Positions 19,100 through 25,388 are shown, counted from the stretch's first letter. The stretch: DNA of 64,000 bases from Caulifigura coniformis (GCF_007745175.1 NZ_CP036271.1:372001-436000); one strand, 5' to 3'. A program made the numbers and translations. The notes: a model not told the origin generated them from the letters alone.

Positions 19100-21058
19100 A
19101 TGAACGGACGGCCGTTCCGGATCGCAGCGGCAGGACTGGGCGCGGCGCTCATAGCGAGCATCGTTGCCGGACTCTCGCATTTCCGGATCGAGTCCCGACT
19201 TCTCGCGCGGTCGATCAGAATCCCCGTCTCATCCGCCACCGTTGTACTCGCGGCCAGTTCGCCGTCCGCCTCGCCGACTCACGCACAGACTTCTCCCGCT
19301 CTCCCGCCCGCTCCTCTGCCGGCGATCCCTCTTCCGCCGGACGTTGAGACCAACGCGCTCGACCTCCTTGCCCAGACGCTGCCGCAACGCGACCCCGTCT
19401 CGCGCGGCATGTCGCGGCCCGGGATGGCCGTCGTGTCGAATCTCCGCCGAAAGAAGGAGTTCGTCGAACTCCCTCCGCCCCCCGAGTTCCTCGATGAGCC
19501 GGCCGCCGACCTCGCCGTCGCTCCCCCCTTGCCCGTCCGGTCGATCGAGCCGGCCGCCGATTCCCGCCTTCTCGCGGAAATCGCCAGTCTGAAAAGTGAA
19601 CTCGAGCGACTGGGCCAGCAGCAACGGCTCGAACGCGAAGTCGAGCGCGACCGGCATGCTCGGGAACTCGCGGACGTCGCGACGGAGCATCGCCTGGCCG
19701 AACTGAAAGCTTCCATCGAAGAGCTGAAGGCGAAACAGTCCGAAGCGCGCACCGCGATGCTACAGGAGGAGCCGGCCCCGCCAGTCTTCGAACGCACCGT
19801 CCCGCAGCCGCCGCCCGAAGTGGCCCTTCCCGTCGCGGAAGCCCCCGCAGTCGATCCCACGGTCCGGATCGTCGAATCCACAACGGCGAACCATTTCGAC
19901 TTCCATTTCGACGCCGCCAGCCTCCAGGTCGCCCTCGCCCGCATCGGCGAGCACGGCGCAATGAACCTTGTCATCAGCCCGGAGATCGCCGGAATGGTGA
20001 CGGCCTCCTGGAAGAACATCACCGCCCGCGAAGCGCTCGACGCCGTCTGTCTGGCCCACGGGCTCACGGTTCAGGCGAATGGCGGGTTCCTGCTCGTTTC
20101 GAGGCCGAAGGAACCGCCCGCCCGGGTGGAACCGGCGAAGAAAACCGTCGCACAGATGTTCCGGCCGCTCTACATCTCGGGCCGCGACCTCCGTCCGCTG
20201 ATCGAGCCGTTGCTGACGCCGAACGTCGGCCGCGTCTCCGTCACCCTGCCGCAATCGACCGGCGAGGCCCGGCGGATACCGGGAGGTGCCGATTCGCTGT
20301 CGCAGCCCGATGCGGTGATGGTCGTCGACTATCCCGAGGTCATCGAACTCGTGGCGCGGACCATCTCGGAACTCGACGTTCCCGCGCCGCATGTGGAACT
20401 GGAAGCCACGATTCTCGACGTGCAGCTTTCGGGACGGGTGAAGGACGGCGTGGGATCGCTCATCGCGAACGGCGAGTTCAGCCATCGCCCCGGCTTCGTG
20501 AGTCTGGATGACCCGCAGATGTCGATGCCCTGCGACTCCTGCTGCCAGACCTGCGACATGCCCTGCAGCGAAGTGGTCCGGAAGCTCAAACTCTGGACCG
20601 ACGTGAAGCTGGTCTCGAATGCCCGCCTGCTGGTCCTCAACAAGCAGCCTGCGGAACTCCAGGTCGGCTCGGAAAGCCTGGCCATTCTGCCCCGGGGCGG
20701 AACCATGTCGACCTCCGCGGTCGATGGAGGAATGCGGCTCTTTGTGCGGCCGTTCGTGTCGGCCGACCATCTGGTGCGGCTGGAAGTTGCCCCCGAGGCG
20801 ATCACGTCCCGCTCGCAGCCGATGAACACGCGCCGCGAGACATTCGCTTCCGTGGCAACGAACGTGGCCGTTCCGAACGGGGGATCGCTCGTGATCGCCG
20901 GGCTGAACGTCGACCAGTCAGTCGCCCCCAGCGCCATCTTCCAGGGCTTCGGTCGGCCGAAGAAGAAGCACAAGGACGAAGCCGACCGGGCTGTGAGACG
21001 CGAAATCGTGATCATGATCACGCCGCGGGTGGTGCAGGGATGCGGGCCGCTTCATTGA
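19100..21058 (+). CDS. Secretin-like type II/III secretion system outer-membrane protein
   Basis: The 652-residue protein starts at ATG 19100 with GGAGG upstream. The N-terminus has a hydrophobic anchor (about 8-26), then a Pro-rich region and a charged coiled coil (about 150-215, LKSELERLGQQQRLE). An STN/N0-like domain follows (about 275-340: FDAASLQVALARIGEHGAMN, SWKNITAREALDAVCLAHGL), then an N1-type fold ending DVPAPHVELEATILDVQLSG. A cysteine-rich insert with CDSCCQTCDMPC lies near 477-490. The C-terminal secretin domain (about 500-645) shows ELQVGSE, RETFASVATNVAVPNGGSLV and REIVIMITPRVV. It should form a gated outer-membrane ring. Nearby genes for a FliF/YscJ ring protein and an AAA+ regulator hint at an envelope complex. 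No inner-membrane ATPase or pseudopilin is seen here. Confidence 0.87.
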   Translation: MNGRPFRIAAAGLGAALIASIVAGLSHFRIESRLLARSIRIPVSSATVVLAASSPSASPTHAQTSPALPPAPLPAIPLPPDVETNALDLLAQTLPQRDPVSRGMSRPGMAVVSNLRRKKEFVELPPPPEFLDEPAADLAVAPPLPVRSIEPAADSRLLAEIASLKSELERLGQQQRLEREVERDRHARELADVATEHRLAELKASIEELKAKQSEARTAMLQEEPAPPVFERTVPQPPPEVALPVAEAPAVDPTVRIVESTTANHFDFHFDAASLQVALARIGEHGAMNLVISPEIAGMVTASWKNITAREALDAVCLAHGLTVQANGGFLLVSRPKEPPARVEPAKKTVAQMFRPLYISGRDLRPLIEPLLTPNVGRVSVTLPQSTGEARRIPGGADSLSQPDAVMVVDYPEVIELVARTISELDVPAPHVELEATILDVQLSGRVKDGVGSLIANGEFSHRPGFVSLDDPQMSMPCDSCCQTCDMPCSEVVRKLKLWTDVKLVSNARLLVLNKQPAELQVGSESLAILPRGGTMSTSAVDGGMRLFVRPFVSADHLVRLEVAPEAITSRSQPMNTRRETFASVATNVAVPNGGSLVIAGLNVDQSVAPSAIFQGFGRPKKKHKDEADRAVRREIVIMITPRVVQGCGPLH

Positions 21059-21124
21059 ACCCTGAAACATGACGGTGCACAGGAGATGGATAGACTGGAG
21101 AACGATAGTCTTCAGGGATTCATC

Positions 21125-21358
21125 ATGTACGACCGTATCGTCTCTGTTCCCGGTATTCTCGGCGGCAAGCCAATCGTCCGGGGAACGCGCATGAGCGTCG
21201 AGTTCATCCTTGAGATGCTCGCGTCGGGCGCCACTCGTGAACAGATTGTGGAGACTTATCCCCTCTTGACGATTGAAGACGTCGAGCAGGGGATTCTGTT
21301 CGCCGCGGCCTTGTTGCGGAACGAAGACGTCTATGTCCACGTCGACGACGTGTCGTGA
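21125..21358 (+). CDS. DUF433 protein (antitoxin-like)
   Basis: A 77-residue protein starts at ATG 21125 (MYDRIVSVPGILGGKPIVRG). The pattern GILGGKPIVRGTRMSVEFIL, then an LASGATREQIVETYPLLT helix-turn-helix segment and EDVEQGILFAA, is diagnostic of DUF433. Members of this family usually act as the antitoxin half of a pair with a DUF5615 PIN-like nuclease encoded just downstream. No such partner frame follows here: the next gene begins 485 bp on, and the DNA between contains stops in all frames. It is thus an orphan or a leftover. It lies 66 bp after the secretin stop and could be cotranscribed with it. Confidence 0.82.
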   Translation: MYDRIVSVPGILGGKPIVRGTRMSVEFILEMLASGATREQIVETYPLLTIEDVEQGILFAAALLRNEDVYVHVDDVS

Positions 21359-21843
21359 CGCTCTTCGCATCTGGCGTCTCGTGACCTCGTCGCTCAGGAC
21401 GCAGACTTCGGGCTCGCGTATGGCCCCGTCGCGATTCGTGTCCGAACCTTGATGTGGTGCCCCGGCGGGCAGCCATCGCGCAGCGTCGGGTTCTCCGGCG
21501 ACCGACTTCGCGCAGTTTCTGCCGGTCCACGGCCGCAAACGCCCCGTATCGGCCTTCAGAAGCCCAAACTTGAAAGTCTTTCAAAGCCCGATAGTCAAAC
21601 CTGCAAAAACCGCTTGACACTTTTCGCGACCGGCAGATATCAACCGGTCCTTCGCTGTCTCACCTCTCAAAGTCTTCCCCCCCACGCCACTTCCAACTTT
21701 CGCAATCCCGCGGGGCACATTCGTACCCACGCAAGGATCGCCGTCTGCCTTCGTCTGACTTCCGTTCTGGAATCATTCGTCTCCGGATCGCGTTCTGCGC
21801 TCACAGTGCGATTGAGCCCCATCCCACCGGGAGGAGCTTCTCC
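21359..21843. other. Intergenic region with palindrome and promoter-like sequence
   Basis: No supported gene is visible in this 485-bp stretch. It contains a short palindrome (TTGAAAG-T-CTTTCAA, 21570-21584) and a sigma-70-like promoter to its right (21614-21643). Both are placed to drive the AAA+ regulator gene at 21844. Confidence 0.5.
21570..21643 (+). promoter_or_regulatory. Putative sigma-70 promoter with upstream palindrome
   Basis: TTGACA (21614-21619) is followed after 18 bp by TATCAA (21638-21643), a good -35 and a fair -10. The 15-bp palindrome TTGAAAG-T-CTTTCAA (21570-21584) lies just upstream of the -35 and could bind a dimeric regulator. The spacing leaves a leader of about 195 nt before the ATG at 21844. 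Confidence 0.45.
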
Positions 21844-23220
21844 ATGAGCGACATTGCATCCTCCGCGACAATTCGCCTGACCGGCCGCGTCGCGGTCTGG
21901 TCCCGCGATGAGCGGGCCCGCCAGCGTCTGGTGCTGGCCATCCAGCAGAACGGCTATGAGGCCGTCGAGTTTGCCACCATCGAAACCCTGCGAACGGGCA
22001 TCGCTTCGAGCCCGTTCTCGGCCTGCGTGATTGACGAGCCGGATCATCCGGACGTCGTCCGTGCCACGGAACAGGCCGCCCGCCAGGGTGGTCACCCGAC
22101 GCAGTTCGTCGTGCTGCCTTCACTGGGAGCACGCGGCATGCCGTTCGGCGGGCCGGTCTGCGACGTGCTCGAGCCGCCCCAGACGGCTGAACGCCTCGGC
22201 CGGGCGCTGTTCGCCGCCGTCGGTCGCTCGCGGCTGCTCGCCGAAAACCTGAACCTCAAGCGGCGCCTTGAAAGCCGCATGTTCGAAGACCTCGTCGGCC
22301 ACAGCGAAGCGATGGATACGCTCCGCCGGAAGGTCGGTGAAGCCAGCGAGCATGAACGCCCGGTCCTGATTCATGGTGAGGCCGGAGCCGGCACGTCGAT
22401 CGTGTCGCGAGCCATTCACCTCGCCCGCTGCGGCGGTCGCCGACCGTTCCTCAAGATCTCGTGCTCGGTGCTGTCGGCCGCGGTCGTCCAGGCCGAACTG
22501 TTCGGCGACGGACGCAACGCGGGCCGGTTCGCCTCGGCCACCGGCGGCACCCTGCTGCTCGAAGACGTGGAAGCCCTGGCCCTGCCGGTGCAGGAACAGC
22601 TGGTGAAGGTGCTGGAAGAGAAGCAGTATCGTCCGACCGGTTCGGACACGCCGCTTCCGCTCCAGGTGCGGATCCTGGCTTCGACGCACTGCGACCTGCA
22701 GCAGCTCGCCGCGGCCGGCAAGTTCCATCCGGGACTGGTCCGCCATCTGCGAGTCGATGCGATCCACGTCCCGCCGCTCCGCGACCGTATGGAAGACCTG
22801 TCGACGCTGGCCGAGCAGTTCCTGACGGAATGTGCCGTCCGCGAAGGACAGCCGGTTCGCAAGCTGAGCCCCGAGGCTCTCGAGCGGATGCGTCAGTACA
22901 ACTGGCCGGAAAACTGTCGCGAACTGCAGAACGTCATCAGCCGCTGCTGCTCACTGAGCACGGCAACCATCATCACGGCCGAGATGATCGAGCCCTGGCT
23001 CGAGAAGTCGGCTGACGATGAAGCGACCGATCCGGGCATGACGCTGGCTTCGATGGAACGCAAGCTGATCGAAGCGACGTTCAACCGCTTCGCCGGCAAC
23101 CGCGAACTGACGGCCAAGGCCCTGAAGATTGGTCTCCGCACTCTCTCCGGCAAGCTCCGCGAGTACGGCTACCCGCCGCGTGGAGGCCCGGGTTCGAACC
23201 GCGAAGCCCGCGCCGCCTGA
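21844..23220 (+). CDS. Degenerate sigma-54-activator-like AAA+ protein with receiver-like N-terminus and Fis-type HTH
   Basis: The 458-residue protein has GGGAGGAG before ATG 21844. Residues about 15-130 look like a receiver-type fold, but no clear phospho-acceptor Asp surroundings are seen. An AAA+ domain resembling NtrC-type activators follows (about 150-385): DLVGHSEAMDTLRRKV, VLIHGEAGAGTS (about 174-185), AELFGDGRNAGRF, GGTLLLEDVEAL, PPLRDRMEDL and NWPENCRELQNVI. Key parts are altered: the Walker A Lys is Thr, and the GAFTGA loop that contacts sigma-54 is absent after ELFG. The C-terminal helix-turn-helix (about 415-445, NRELTAKALKIGLRTLSGKL) is intact. It probably binds DNA but is unlikely to remodel sigma-54 polymerase in the usual way. 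It ends at a strong terminator. Confidence 0.88.
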   Translation: MSDIASSATIRLTGRVAVWSRDERARQRLVLAIQQNGYEAVEFATIETLRTGIASSPFSACVIDEPDHPDVVRATEQAARQGGHPTQFVVLPSLGARGMPFGGPVCDVLEPPQTAERLGRALFAAVGRSRLLAENLNLKRRLESRMFEDLVGHSEAMDTLRRKVGEASEHERPVLIHGEAGAGTSIVSRAIHLARCGGRRPFLKISCSVLSAAVVQAELFGDGRNAGRFASATGGTLLLEDVEALALPVQEQLVKVLEEKQYRPTGSDTPLPLQVRILASTHCDLQQLAAAGKFHPGLVRHLRVDAIHVPPLRDRMEDLSTLAEQFLTECAVREGQPVRKLSPEALERMRQYNWPENCRELQNVISRCCSLSTATIITAEMIEPWLEKSADDEATDPGMTLASMERKLIEATFNRFAGNRELTAKALKIGLRTLSGKLREYGYPPRGGPGSNREARAA

Positions 23221-23239
23221 TCGCGGCAGAGTCCCCCAC

Positions 23240-23275
23240 GAAGCCCGGCTTTTGGCAAAAGGCCGGGCTTCTTTT
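23240..23275 (+). terminator. Rho-independent terminator after the AAA+ gene
   Basis: Arms GAAGCCCGGC (23240-23249) and GCCGGGCTTC (23262-23271) are followed by TTTT. The loop contains TTTTGG and CAAAAGG, which extend the stem. The stem sequence is nearly the same as at 6073-6100. Confidence 0.8.
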
Positions 23276-23369
23276 CAACCTGCTGCCAGCGTCGATCCCA
23301 ACGAATCCCCCGCGGCAGCCCCCGAACCCTCCGTACCGAGTTCCCCTTCCCCACCAGGAGCCGTCTGCC

Positions 23370-23789
23370 ATGCCCACGCGACTCCTTCTCCTGGCGATCT
23401 TCTGCCTGCCTGGCAGCAGCTGCGCGAGAAGTTCCCGCGCGATCGTCGACGGAGATCCCTTCCTCGCCCCGACCAGCACCCAGGTCGCCTTCGACGAGCG
23501 GACCGCGGCCCCGGTTGACCCACCCACCCAGTCAGCTCCCCAGGTCAGGGAGACCGCCTCGGTCGTCGACAACAGCCTGATCGGAGTCGACGTCGATGTC
23601 GCGTCGGGCCAGACATCCATGTCGCCGCCGGAGAAAAAAGAATGGTGGCACACCGCATCGGCCGCGGAGGCCTCCGGGGAGATGCAGACCGTGATGAAGG
23701 ATGACATCAAGGTCCCCGATGCGGCATCCGTCAATGGCCGCGTCGGCCACTTCAGCGTCGACTACGGAGTCGGAACGCGAATCAAATAG
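23370..23789 (+). CDS. Small secreted protein or lipoprotein, function unknown
   Basis: A 139-residue protein starts at ATG 23370 with AGGAG 9 nt upstream. The N-terminus MPTRLLLLAIFCLPGSSCAR is a signal sequence with a Cys at the expected place for lipidation, though GSSC is a weak lipobox. The mature part is acidic and disordered-looking (many Val, Asp, Thr, Ser), with no known domain. It sits between the AAA+ regulator and the FliF-like gene, 72 bp before the latter, suggesting a shared transcript and a role in the same envelope structure. That link is inference from position only. Confidence 0.65.
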   Translation: MPTRLLLLAIFCLPGSSCARSSRAIVDGDPFLAPTSTQVAFDERTAAPVDPPTQSAPQVRETASVVDNSLIGVDVDVASGQTSMSPPEKKEWWHTASAAEASGEMQTVMKDDIKVPDAASVNGRVGHFSVDYGVGTRIK

Positions 23790-23861
23790 ACCACCGATCC
23801 GTTCGCTTCCCTTCCTGAAACTCGACAGCTGAGCGAATCGCTCATTTCCCCCGAAGAAGTC

Positions 23862-25205
23862 ATGGACGACTCGATCGACACCACGTCTTCAATTGCCGAC
23901 CGATTCCGCGCCCTGCCGGAAACGCAGCGACGCCTGCTGCCGGTCGTCGTCGTGGCCATCGTTCTCGCCGCCGGTTGGCTCCTTTCGCAGCGCAGCGGTG
24001 CGACCGCCGTGCTCCCGCTCCCGCACGGTCTCACCCCCGCGGCTGCAGTCGCCCACCTCGCCGAACGAGGCGTCCCGGATGCGAAAACGAGCGGCCCCGG
24101 CAAGATCACCGTTCCCGCCGCCAGAACGGCGGACGCCCGGCGCTTCCTCGACGAACTCTCCGCCGTCTCAACCTCCTGGGCCGACGAATGGGAAAAATCG
24201 AATTCCCAGCTCGGCCAGTTCTCCGGACATCGTGAACGCGACGCCGCCAGGGAAATCGCCCGCGCCCGCATGATCGGTCGGCTCCTCCGCCAGATGCCCG
24301 GCATCGCCCAGGCCGATGTCGTCTGGGATGAAGAAGACTCCGCCGGCTGGCGTGCTCCGCAGAAAACCCGCTGCACCGTCTATCTCCGCCCGCAGACCGG
24401 CTACGAAATCACCGCCGACGTCGCGCGTTCCGTCCGGCAGGCTGTCGCCGGAAGCAAGAAACACCTCGCCGCCGAAGACATCGTCGTCATGGATCTCGAT
24501 CGCATGACGACCTTCGACGCCGTTCCGTCCGGCATCGACGAAACCACCCGCAGCCTCGCCGAGCGCGAAGTGATCGAGCTGCGCCAGGAAGTCGAAACCG
24601 CGCTGCGCGACTGCGCCGGCGTGCGGGTCAACGTGTCCGTCAACTGGCTCGACCATCGAGCCGAAGACACCGAAGTGGAACTGCTCTCGGTCAGTCGCCG
24701 CGAGACCGCCCGGCGTCCGATCCAGCTCGCGTCGTCGAATGGTTTCCTGGAAGAACTGTCTCGCGATGAAGAAGTCCCGGGCCCGTTCGAACCGAGCATC
24801 CAGATCACCGTGACCGCCCCCGAAGATGCCGCGGCCGAATGGGCTCTGCAGCATTCCCCGAATGCCGCCCACGATCCCGAGGTCAAACCGGCCAGCTTCC
24901 AGCGCCCCCTGAAAGCCAAGGCCGCCGACACCATCCGCCAGAGCGTCTGCTCCGTGCTCTCGAAATTCGACCGCCGCAACCTGGCTAAAGGCGTCTCGGT
25001 CCACCTCACCGCCGCAACCGGCGTCGCGGAAACACTCGAAACTGTTCCCGACGAGCGAGTCATCGACCCCCTCTGGTTCCTGGCGATCGCGATCATCGGC
25101 TGTGCCGCCGGCGCCTGGGTCCTCTCCAGCGCCTTCGCCAGCGATGACCGCTCCCCGATGGCCCACGCCGGCCATCACTTCGACGAACCCGCCGCGCCGG
25201 TCTAA
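23862..25205 (+). CDS. FliF/YscJ-family MS-ring-like protein
   Basis: The 447-residue protein starts at ATG 23862. A first transmembrane helix (about 26-45, LLPVVVVAIVLAAGWLL) is followed by a ring-building motif region. The stretch PHGLTPAAAVAHLAERGVPD with KITVPAARTADARRFLDEL matches the YscJ-like domain, and VYLRPQTGYEITADVARSVR with KKHLAAEDIVVMDLDRM matches the second ring-building motif of FliF. A second transmembrane helix lies near 395-420. Flagellar FliF is about 550 residues and ends in a FliG-binding tail; here almost nothing follows the second helix, so FliG docking is unlikely. No other flagellar gene is near. It is either a divergent flagellar MS-ring or, more interestingly, the inner ring of a separate secretion-like complex with the secretin upstream. 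Confidence 0.85.
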   Translation: MDDSIDTTSSIADRFRALPETQRRLLPVVVVAIVLAAGWLLSQRSGATAVLPLPHGLTPAAAVAHLAERGVPDAKTSGPGKITVPAARTADARRFLDELSAVSTSWADEWEKSNSQLGQFSGHRERDAAREIARARMIGRLLRQMPGIAQADVVWDEEDSAGWRAPQKTRCTVYLRPQTGYEITADVARSVRQAVAGSKKHLAAEDIVVMDLDRMTTFDAVPSGIDETTRSLAEREVIELRQEVETALRDCAGVRVNVSVNWLDHRAEDTEVELLSVSRRETARRPIQLASSNGFLEELSRDEEVPGPFEPSIQITVTAPEDAAAEWALQHSPNAAHDPEVKPASFQRPLKAKAADTIRQSVCSVLSKFDRRNLAKGVSVHLTAATGVAETLETVPDERVIDPLWFLAIAIIGCAAGAWVLSSAFASDDRSPMAHAGHHFDEPAAPV

Positions 25206-25292
25206 GCAATGCCAGCGACTCACAGGTAATGACAACCGACCGCGATGGCGCGTGGACATTCGCTGTCGCTGAGGCCTTCCCCCCGGGACGAG

Positions 25293-25388
25293 ACCTGTGA
25301 CGACCTGTGACGAGACCTGTGACAGCGAAAACCGTCTGAAACATTGGAGTTCTGGACCTGTGACATGTGTGACATGTCTGACGAGCTG
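25293..25388. repeat. Cluster of short direct repeats (ACCTGTGAC)
   Basis: Exact 9-mers start at 25293, 25303, 25315 and 25356. They are followed by the variants ATGTGTGAC and ATGTCTGAC. The spacing (10, 12, 41 bp) is irregular, so this is not a CRISPR array. It lies just past the FliF-like gene stop and could be a protein-binding cluster or simple slippage-derived sequence. Confidence 0.6.

Follow-up and report, generated by a model that had tools for sequence, protein, structure and literature searches.

A probable second, flagellum-derived type III export apparatus encoded at scattered loci in the planctomycete Caulifigura coniformis

Introduction

Export gates that derive from the flagellum and serve outside it are already known. 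Among the closest described systems, FliF and FlhA of Chlamydia pneumoniae interact (PMC2830194), the needleless type III secretion system of Myxococcus (T3SS*) is functional and takes part in prey lysis (PMC12075869), and a hat-like inner-membrane complex has been described that is not formed by FliF (PMC9380563). Salmonella gates export without their ATPase once the proton motive force or the substrate level is raised (PMC4230889). For the Planctomycetes, we found no report of a reduced export gate in the open-access literature. Here we describe a pair of adjoining genes, encoding an NtrC-like AAA+ protein and a FliF/YscJ-like ring protein, in a 64,000-nucleotide stretch of the genome of Caulifigura coniformis Pan44T (hereafter the window, meaning the whole stretch analysed; bases 372,001-436,000 of a single contig of 6,761,146 bp).

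C. coniformis is a planctomycete that bears a stalk and multiplies by budding; flagella were “not observed” in the species description, nor were they observed in the comparison strain CP036275 (PMC7717036). Planctoellipticum variicoloris SH412T has motile daughter cells. Strain CP036275 is presumably Maioricimonas rarisocia Mal4. Our homologue searches spanned 170 genomes of the order, in which G numbers designate genomes and L numbers loci, G000 being C. coniformis and G005 a relative of the same genus. Claims of absence are carried mainly by G087 (98% complete) and G154 (99%); the completeness of G153, G155 and G060 is 66-78%.

From these comparisons we conclude that the window’s AAA+ and FliF-like proteins are probably the regulator and the inner-ring component of a type III export apparatus that descends from a flagellum, is encoded as a second, scattered set and no longer makes a flagellum. 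Below we demonstrate that this gene set exists, that its members share an ancestry, that it recurs across genera and that selection acts on it in one species pair.

The AAA+/FliF pair and its operon of origin

The nearest match to the window FliF is a divergent FliF, about 540 residues long and present in many genera. In four genomes (G023, G080, G086 and G089) this divergent FliF lies within a full flagellar operon that has an orthologue of the window’s AAA+ gene at its start or inside it. The full order, regulator-flgB-flgC-fliE-fliF-fliG-fliH-fliI, holds orthologues of both window genes (loci L048, L051, L057 and L054) and continues past fliI with fliJ, fliK and flgD. Other genera have intermediate forms, FliF-FliG-FliH-FliI or AAA+-FliF-FliH-FliI with no flgB, flgC or fliE alongside, in a graded series, and in five genera (G000 and G005, G060, G087, G088, and G153-G155) the operon is reduced to adjoining AAA+ and FliF genes. 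The pairing is not due to chance, since the two genes stand side by side in other genera too, and on gene order the window pair represents a second flagellar operon of planctomycetes, reduced to two genes.

The genome also encodes a canonical flagellum, whose genes span 5.18-5.30 Mb. A canonical FliF at 5,291,114 stands in an operon with FlgB, FlgC, FliE, FliG, FliI, FliQ, FliR and FlhB, and a second canonical cluster at 5,181-5,201 kb holds FlgD, hook and rod genes, FliM, FliN, FliP and FlhA. These loci rule out that the window protein is the genome’s sole MS ring, the reading that the preliminary description of the window had named as fatal to its proposal of an undescribed envelope system. 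Likewise, recurrence in five genera and the substitution ratios reported below rule out that the FliF-like gene is a lone pseudogene.

The scattered second set

The preliminary description held that no export gate or ATPase accompanies these genes, which is correct for their surroundings in the window. For the gate it fails genome-wide: other parts of the chromosome encode a second FlhA, a FliO-FliP-FliQ-FliR run and a truncated FlhB (Table 1). Two FlhA, two FlhB and two FliP are present in each of G000, G005, G060 and G088, whereas G087 and G154 have exactly one copy of each. The second set recurs in five genera, two of which have no other flagellar-type system (best genomes 98-99% complete). 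In G088, FliO-P-Q-R-FlhB stand back to back with the AAA+ and FliF genes, and therefore the pair is there physically linked to the export gate. FlhF lies between the second FlhA (FlhA2) and the sigma factor in G005.

The NPTH autocleavage domain is absent from every second-set FlhB examined, all of which end before it. There is no second FliI in G000, which has the canonical one only, and none scores over the cut-off in G087, G153, G154 or G155; matches under the cut-off resemble paired ATP synthase subunits and other ATPases. The canonical FliM/FliN pair is the only one in G000, and G087, G153, G154 and G155 have neither protein. A single extra FlgE/F/G-like protein was found in each genome checked, except one draft that is 71% complete; membrane-anchored in G087 and G154, it is the sole protein of rod/hook type there, and fully flagellated genera have it too. 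Beyond it and the canonical set, no rod or hook protein was found, in a survey that did not extend genome-wide to FliE, FliH, FliJ, MotA/B or flagellin.

As a family, these FlgE/F/G-like proteins (L170:9295-10680, L172, L173, L176, L177, L179 and L180) are about 400-540 residues long; most carry, besides an N-terminal membrane anchor, a conserved EIWFDELKxLP-like motif. They occur as a single copy in nearly all planctomycete genomes checked, flagellated or not, with no flagellar neighbour recognised.

Ancestry and selection

In trees of both FlhA and FliP, the second-set proteins group with those of the complete G023 flagellum at 100/100 support, and the canonical copies encoded in these genomes fall outside that clade. 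All the FlhA proteins keep the proton-pathway aspartate (placed by motif and equivalent to D208, presumably in Salmonella numbering), and in five of them the neighbouring lysine is arginine. Between G153 and G155, in neither of which another flagellar system was found, the ratio of nonsynonymous to synonymous substitution rates (dN/dS) is 0.09 for FliF, 0.014 for the AAA+ protein and 0.037 for FliP, values low enough to place all three under purifying selection. Between Caulifigura and G005 (dS about 1), the ratio is 0.26 for FlhA2, 0.15 for the AAA+ protein and 0.06 for the sigma factor. The secretin is left out of these comparisons, its ratio having been computed in an incorrect reading frame.

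The FliF-like ring protein

The predicted structure of the window FliF (mean pLDDT 73) has a transmembrane helix at residues 20-46, three ring-building domains and a second transmembrane helix at 403-429, and its top structural matches are flagellar MS rings. It has no NCBIfam match to SctJ, the lipoprotein inner ring. The preliminary description had noted the lack of a FliG-binding tail, and this is borne out: the protein ends about 20 residues past the second transmembrane helix, and no FliG remnant lies 3' of the gene. A short imperfect tandem repeat, GACGAGACCTGT, in about three copies, occupies 25287-25325 just 3' of it.

In G005, G060, G087 and G088, FliF is fused to the C-terminal domain of FliG, a fusion absent in Caulifigura. 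We considered whether the fused domain of these relatives could form a minimal rotary motor; this reading loses weight, since the tails do not conserve the charged residues of the torque helix and the window copy is tailless. Elsewhere in the order, long open reading frames that on similarity alone resemble natural fusions of FliF with FliG, and that precede FliH and FliI, occur at L055:5777-8110 (G139), L270:8277-10961 (G134) and L274:9695-12289 (G144).

The degenerate AAA+ regulator

As the preliminary description recognised, the window’s AAA+ protein is degenerate: its Walker A motif reads GEAGAGTS, with no lysine, and the GAFTGA loop is missing. It shares the Fis-type helix-turn-helix with sigma-54-dependent activators of the NtrC/FleQ type and differs from them in these two losses. 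The Walker A lysine and GAFTGA are also missing in all aligned orthologues, including those in full flagellar operons, and the C-terminal helix-turn-helix of the orthologues is nearly invariant. Since the full-operon orthologues already have both losses, the degenerate AAA+ protein is, on this alignment, an ancestral planctomycete flagellar regulator and not an invention of the window block. It would act as a DNA-binding regulator that makes no contact with sigma-54, and not as a sigma-54 activator.

The putative promoter-like element upstream of the gene (Table 1) recurs in about 15 relatives, where it precedes either the AAA+ gene or the flagellar operon at a similar distance. Over it lies a perfect inverted repeat, GACCGG-N10-CCGGTC (21628-21649), which is not kept in relatives and is a possible autoregulatory site. 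Orthologues of the dead AAA+ protein also stand alone in many genomes (L188-L195, L197-L199, L201 and others), among them those of Planctomicrobium, Thalassoglobus, Fuerstiella and Schlesneria, with no flagellar gene recognised in flanks of up to 8 kb.

Features of the window and of the second set

All five genes flagged in the preliminary description were found on the + strand at the positions given there; profile matches confirm the secretin, DUF433, AAA+ and FliF/YscJ assignments, and the Cys-rich insert of the secretin is visible in its translation as CDSCCQTCDMPC. The small lipoprotein-like protein encoded within the pair is absent between the AAA+ and FliF genes in G005 and at the other pair loci, and its membership of the system appears doubtful on this distribution.

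Table 1. Coordinates of features in the window (counted from its first base) and of second-set genes elsewhere in the C. coniformis genome.
Feature	Coordinates	Reference	Strand	Evidence or remark
Secretin	19004/19101-21058	window	+	PF00263 45.2 bits, over cut-off; Secretin_N under its cut-off
DUF433 protein	21086-21358	window	+	DUF433 70 bits
Promoter-like element TTGACA-N16-gATATCA	21614..21642	window	+	upstream of AAA+ gene; putative
NtrC-like AAA+ protein	21844-23220	window	+	Sigma54_activat 109 bits; HTH_8 34.3 bits
Small protein between AAA+ and FliF-like genes	23370-23789	window	+	lipobox-like GSSC; no family match
FliF/YscJ-like protein	23862-25205	window	+	PF01514 40.8 bits, cut-off 24.4
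FliA/WhiG-type sigma factor	698,309-699,118	genome		beside FlhA2
FlhA2, full length	699,353-701,353	genome		adjoins FliA/WhiG-type sigma factor
FlhB, membrane half only	2,551,528-2,552,235	genome		Pfam-confirmed
FliO-FliP-FliQ-FliR	4,568,111-4,570,316	genome		Pfam-confirmed
FlgE/F/G-like protein	about 4,854,794-4,856,179	genome		N-terminal membrane anchor in most relatives

Proposed function and alternative explanations

How might such a set work? FliPQR, the membrane half of FlhB and the FlhA ring would assemble inside the FliF ring in the inner membrane. The gate would run on the proton motive force alone, via the conserved FlhA aspartate, with no ATPase, C-ring or substrate switch, and candidate cargo would go to the periplasm, since the set comes with no rod, hook or outer-membrane ring of its own. 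It is a serious possibility, which stops a little short of being probable, that the FliF ring, FliOPQR, the FlhB membrane half and FlhA form a naturally ATPase-free and switch-free type III gate for non-motility transport, independent of a true flagellum and sometimes alongside one, that has been kept across several planctomycete genera.

Several observations weigh against such an apparatus. The second-set genes are spread over about 4 Mb, so that the argument for a single machine is built on their common descent and their occurrence together. A common regulator-binding motif 5' of all the scattered operons was not established by an expectation-maximisation search with a weak shuffle control, which returned nothing convincing except the promoter-like element conserved at the AAA+ gene. 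The FlgG-like protein, having its own membrane anchor, may be independent of the gate. No FlhF adjoins FlhA2 in Caulifigura, which fits decay in this lineage, and between Caulifigura and G005 FliF (dN/dS 0.48) and FlhB (0.67) evolve fast at a dS of about 1; these higher ratios make decay in the Caulifigura lineage possible.

The main rival takes up this last point: the second set would be a flagellum in the course of being lost, its leftover genes persisting by chance or for regulation and forming no complex. Such a relic would account for the graded loss across genera, the scattering of the genes, the fast evolution of FliF and FlhB and the missing FliG tail in Caulifigura, and the fact that flagella were not observed in the species. 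We nevertheless regard it as unlikely, because random decay should not spare identical parts: the same subset (FliF, FliOPQR, the FlhB membrane half, FlhA and the sigma factor) is kept with intact frames in five genera, the FlhB truncation falls at one and the same point in all of them, and a species pair that has no other flagellar system shows dN/dS values of 0.01-0.09. That pair also bears on the idea that the set is an accessory of the canonical flagellum, providing a spare or stage-specific gate and ring parts or shedding regulation onto it. Four set-bearing genomes do hold a full canonical flagellum, but G087 and G153-G155 have the second set and no other flagellar system, and the two sets are only distantly related, which leaves this explanation improbable.

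Least probable of all, and by a wide step, is the machine suggested by the preliminary description, in which the five-gene block encodes a secretin outer ring and a FliF inner ring. The genes are neighbours on one strand, and the secretin and YscJ/FliF folds are both real; synteny has nonetheless largely refuted the proposal already, since the block is not kept together even within the genus, an outcome that the preliminary description had itself named as refuting it. The pair of G005 has no secretin, DUF433 or small protein around it, and the secretin homologue of that genome (43% identity) sits on a separate contig among unrelated neighbours. Secretin homologues occur in 99 of the 170 genomes, and the pair-bearing G060, G087 and G154 are not among these. 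Against the type III secretin model, the window secretin scores 32.6 bits, far under a cut-off of 238 that true planctomycete SctC passes. On synteny and distribution we reject it as a partner of the FliF-like protein and regard it as a bystander. Of the undescribed envelope system first envisaged, then, what survives is the AAA+/FliF pair, which is conserved in relatives and points to an undescribed non-flagellar system: the second, scattered export apparatus proposed here.

Were that apparatus confirmed, it would bear on questions of export in general. The smallest functional gate, and work without an ATPase, have so far been argued from engineered mutants (Salmonella ATPase-independent secretion, PMC4230889); here evolution appears to have made and kept an ATPase-free gate, which in some genera is the cell’s sole system of flagellar type. 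Proton-driven export without an ATPase, and the claimed roles of the flagellar export core outside motility, can be tested directly on this naturally occurring set. Counts of FliF, FlhA or FliP genes in planctomycetes overestimate flagella.

Comparison with known systems

With the planctomycete flagellum, the second set shares the MS-ring protein FliF, the gate proteins FliP, FliQ, FliR, FlhA and FlhB (its membrane half only), FliO, a FliA-type sigma factor and, in some relatives, FlhF. It differs in having no FliI or FliM/N of its own, no rod/hook set, an FlhB with no cytoplasmic switch domain and scattered genes. Nor is it an injectisome or other non-flagellar type III secretion system (NF-T3SS): neither SctJ, SctC nor the SctN ATPase was recognised in the window pair or the second set, and the window proteins do not pass the NCBIfam type III cut-offs that true planctomycete SctC and SctJ (SctJ in G161 and G001) exceed.

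Genuine NF-T3SSs do occur in planctomycetes, at L265:8048-19288 and L266:5998-9208 (G161), L267:4463-10510 (G001) and L268 (G160), with SctJ, SctN, SctV, SctR and SctU over NCBIfam equivalog cut-offs in G161, and SctC and SctJ in G001. A 2012 survey of T3SS evolution lists Planctomycetes with flagella only and no non-flagellar system (PMC3459982).

The FlhA/FliF/FliI trio of C. pneumoniae (PMC2830194) is likewise a partial flagellar export set in a bacterium of the PVC superphylum that has no flagella; the trio, the only flagellar orthologues reported there, retains the ATPase, whereas the second set has lost it and retains FliOPQR and FlhB. The Myxococcus T3SS* (PMC12075869; the “Myxo” group of PMC3459982) resembles it as a basal body and gate with no secretin, needle or translocon, but belongs to the NF-T3SS lineage, is encoded in a single cluster and retains its ATPase and sorting platform. 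Lysobacter enzymogenes provides another non-flagellated bacterium that keeps flagellar export genes in a new role (its flagellar T3SS, FT3SS; PMC7277350); it has and requires FliI, and FlhB is needed to export the test substrate. In the nanotube proposal and the hat-like inner-membrane complex (PMC9380563), the export core is likewise viewed apart from the ATPase and the remaining flagellum, with proteins that are shared with the cell’s flagellum. The nearest cases thus all keep an ATPase or share parts with a flagellum, whereas in Caulifigura the export core is encoded by a dedicated second gene set.

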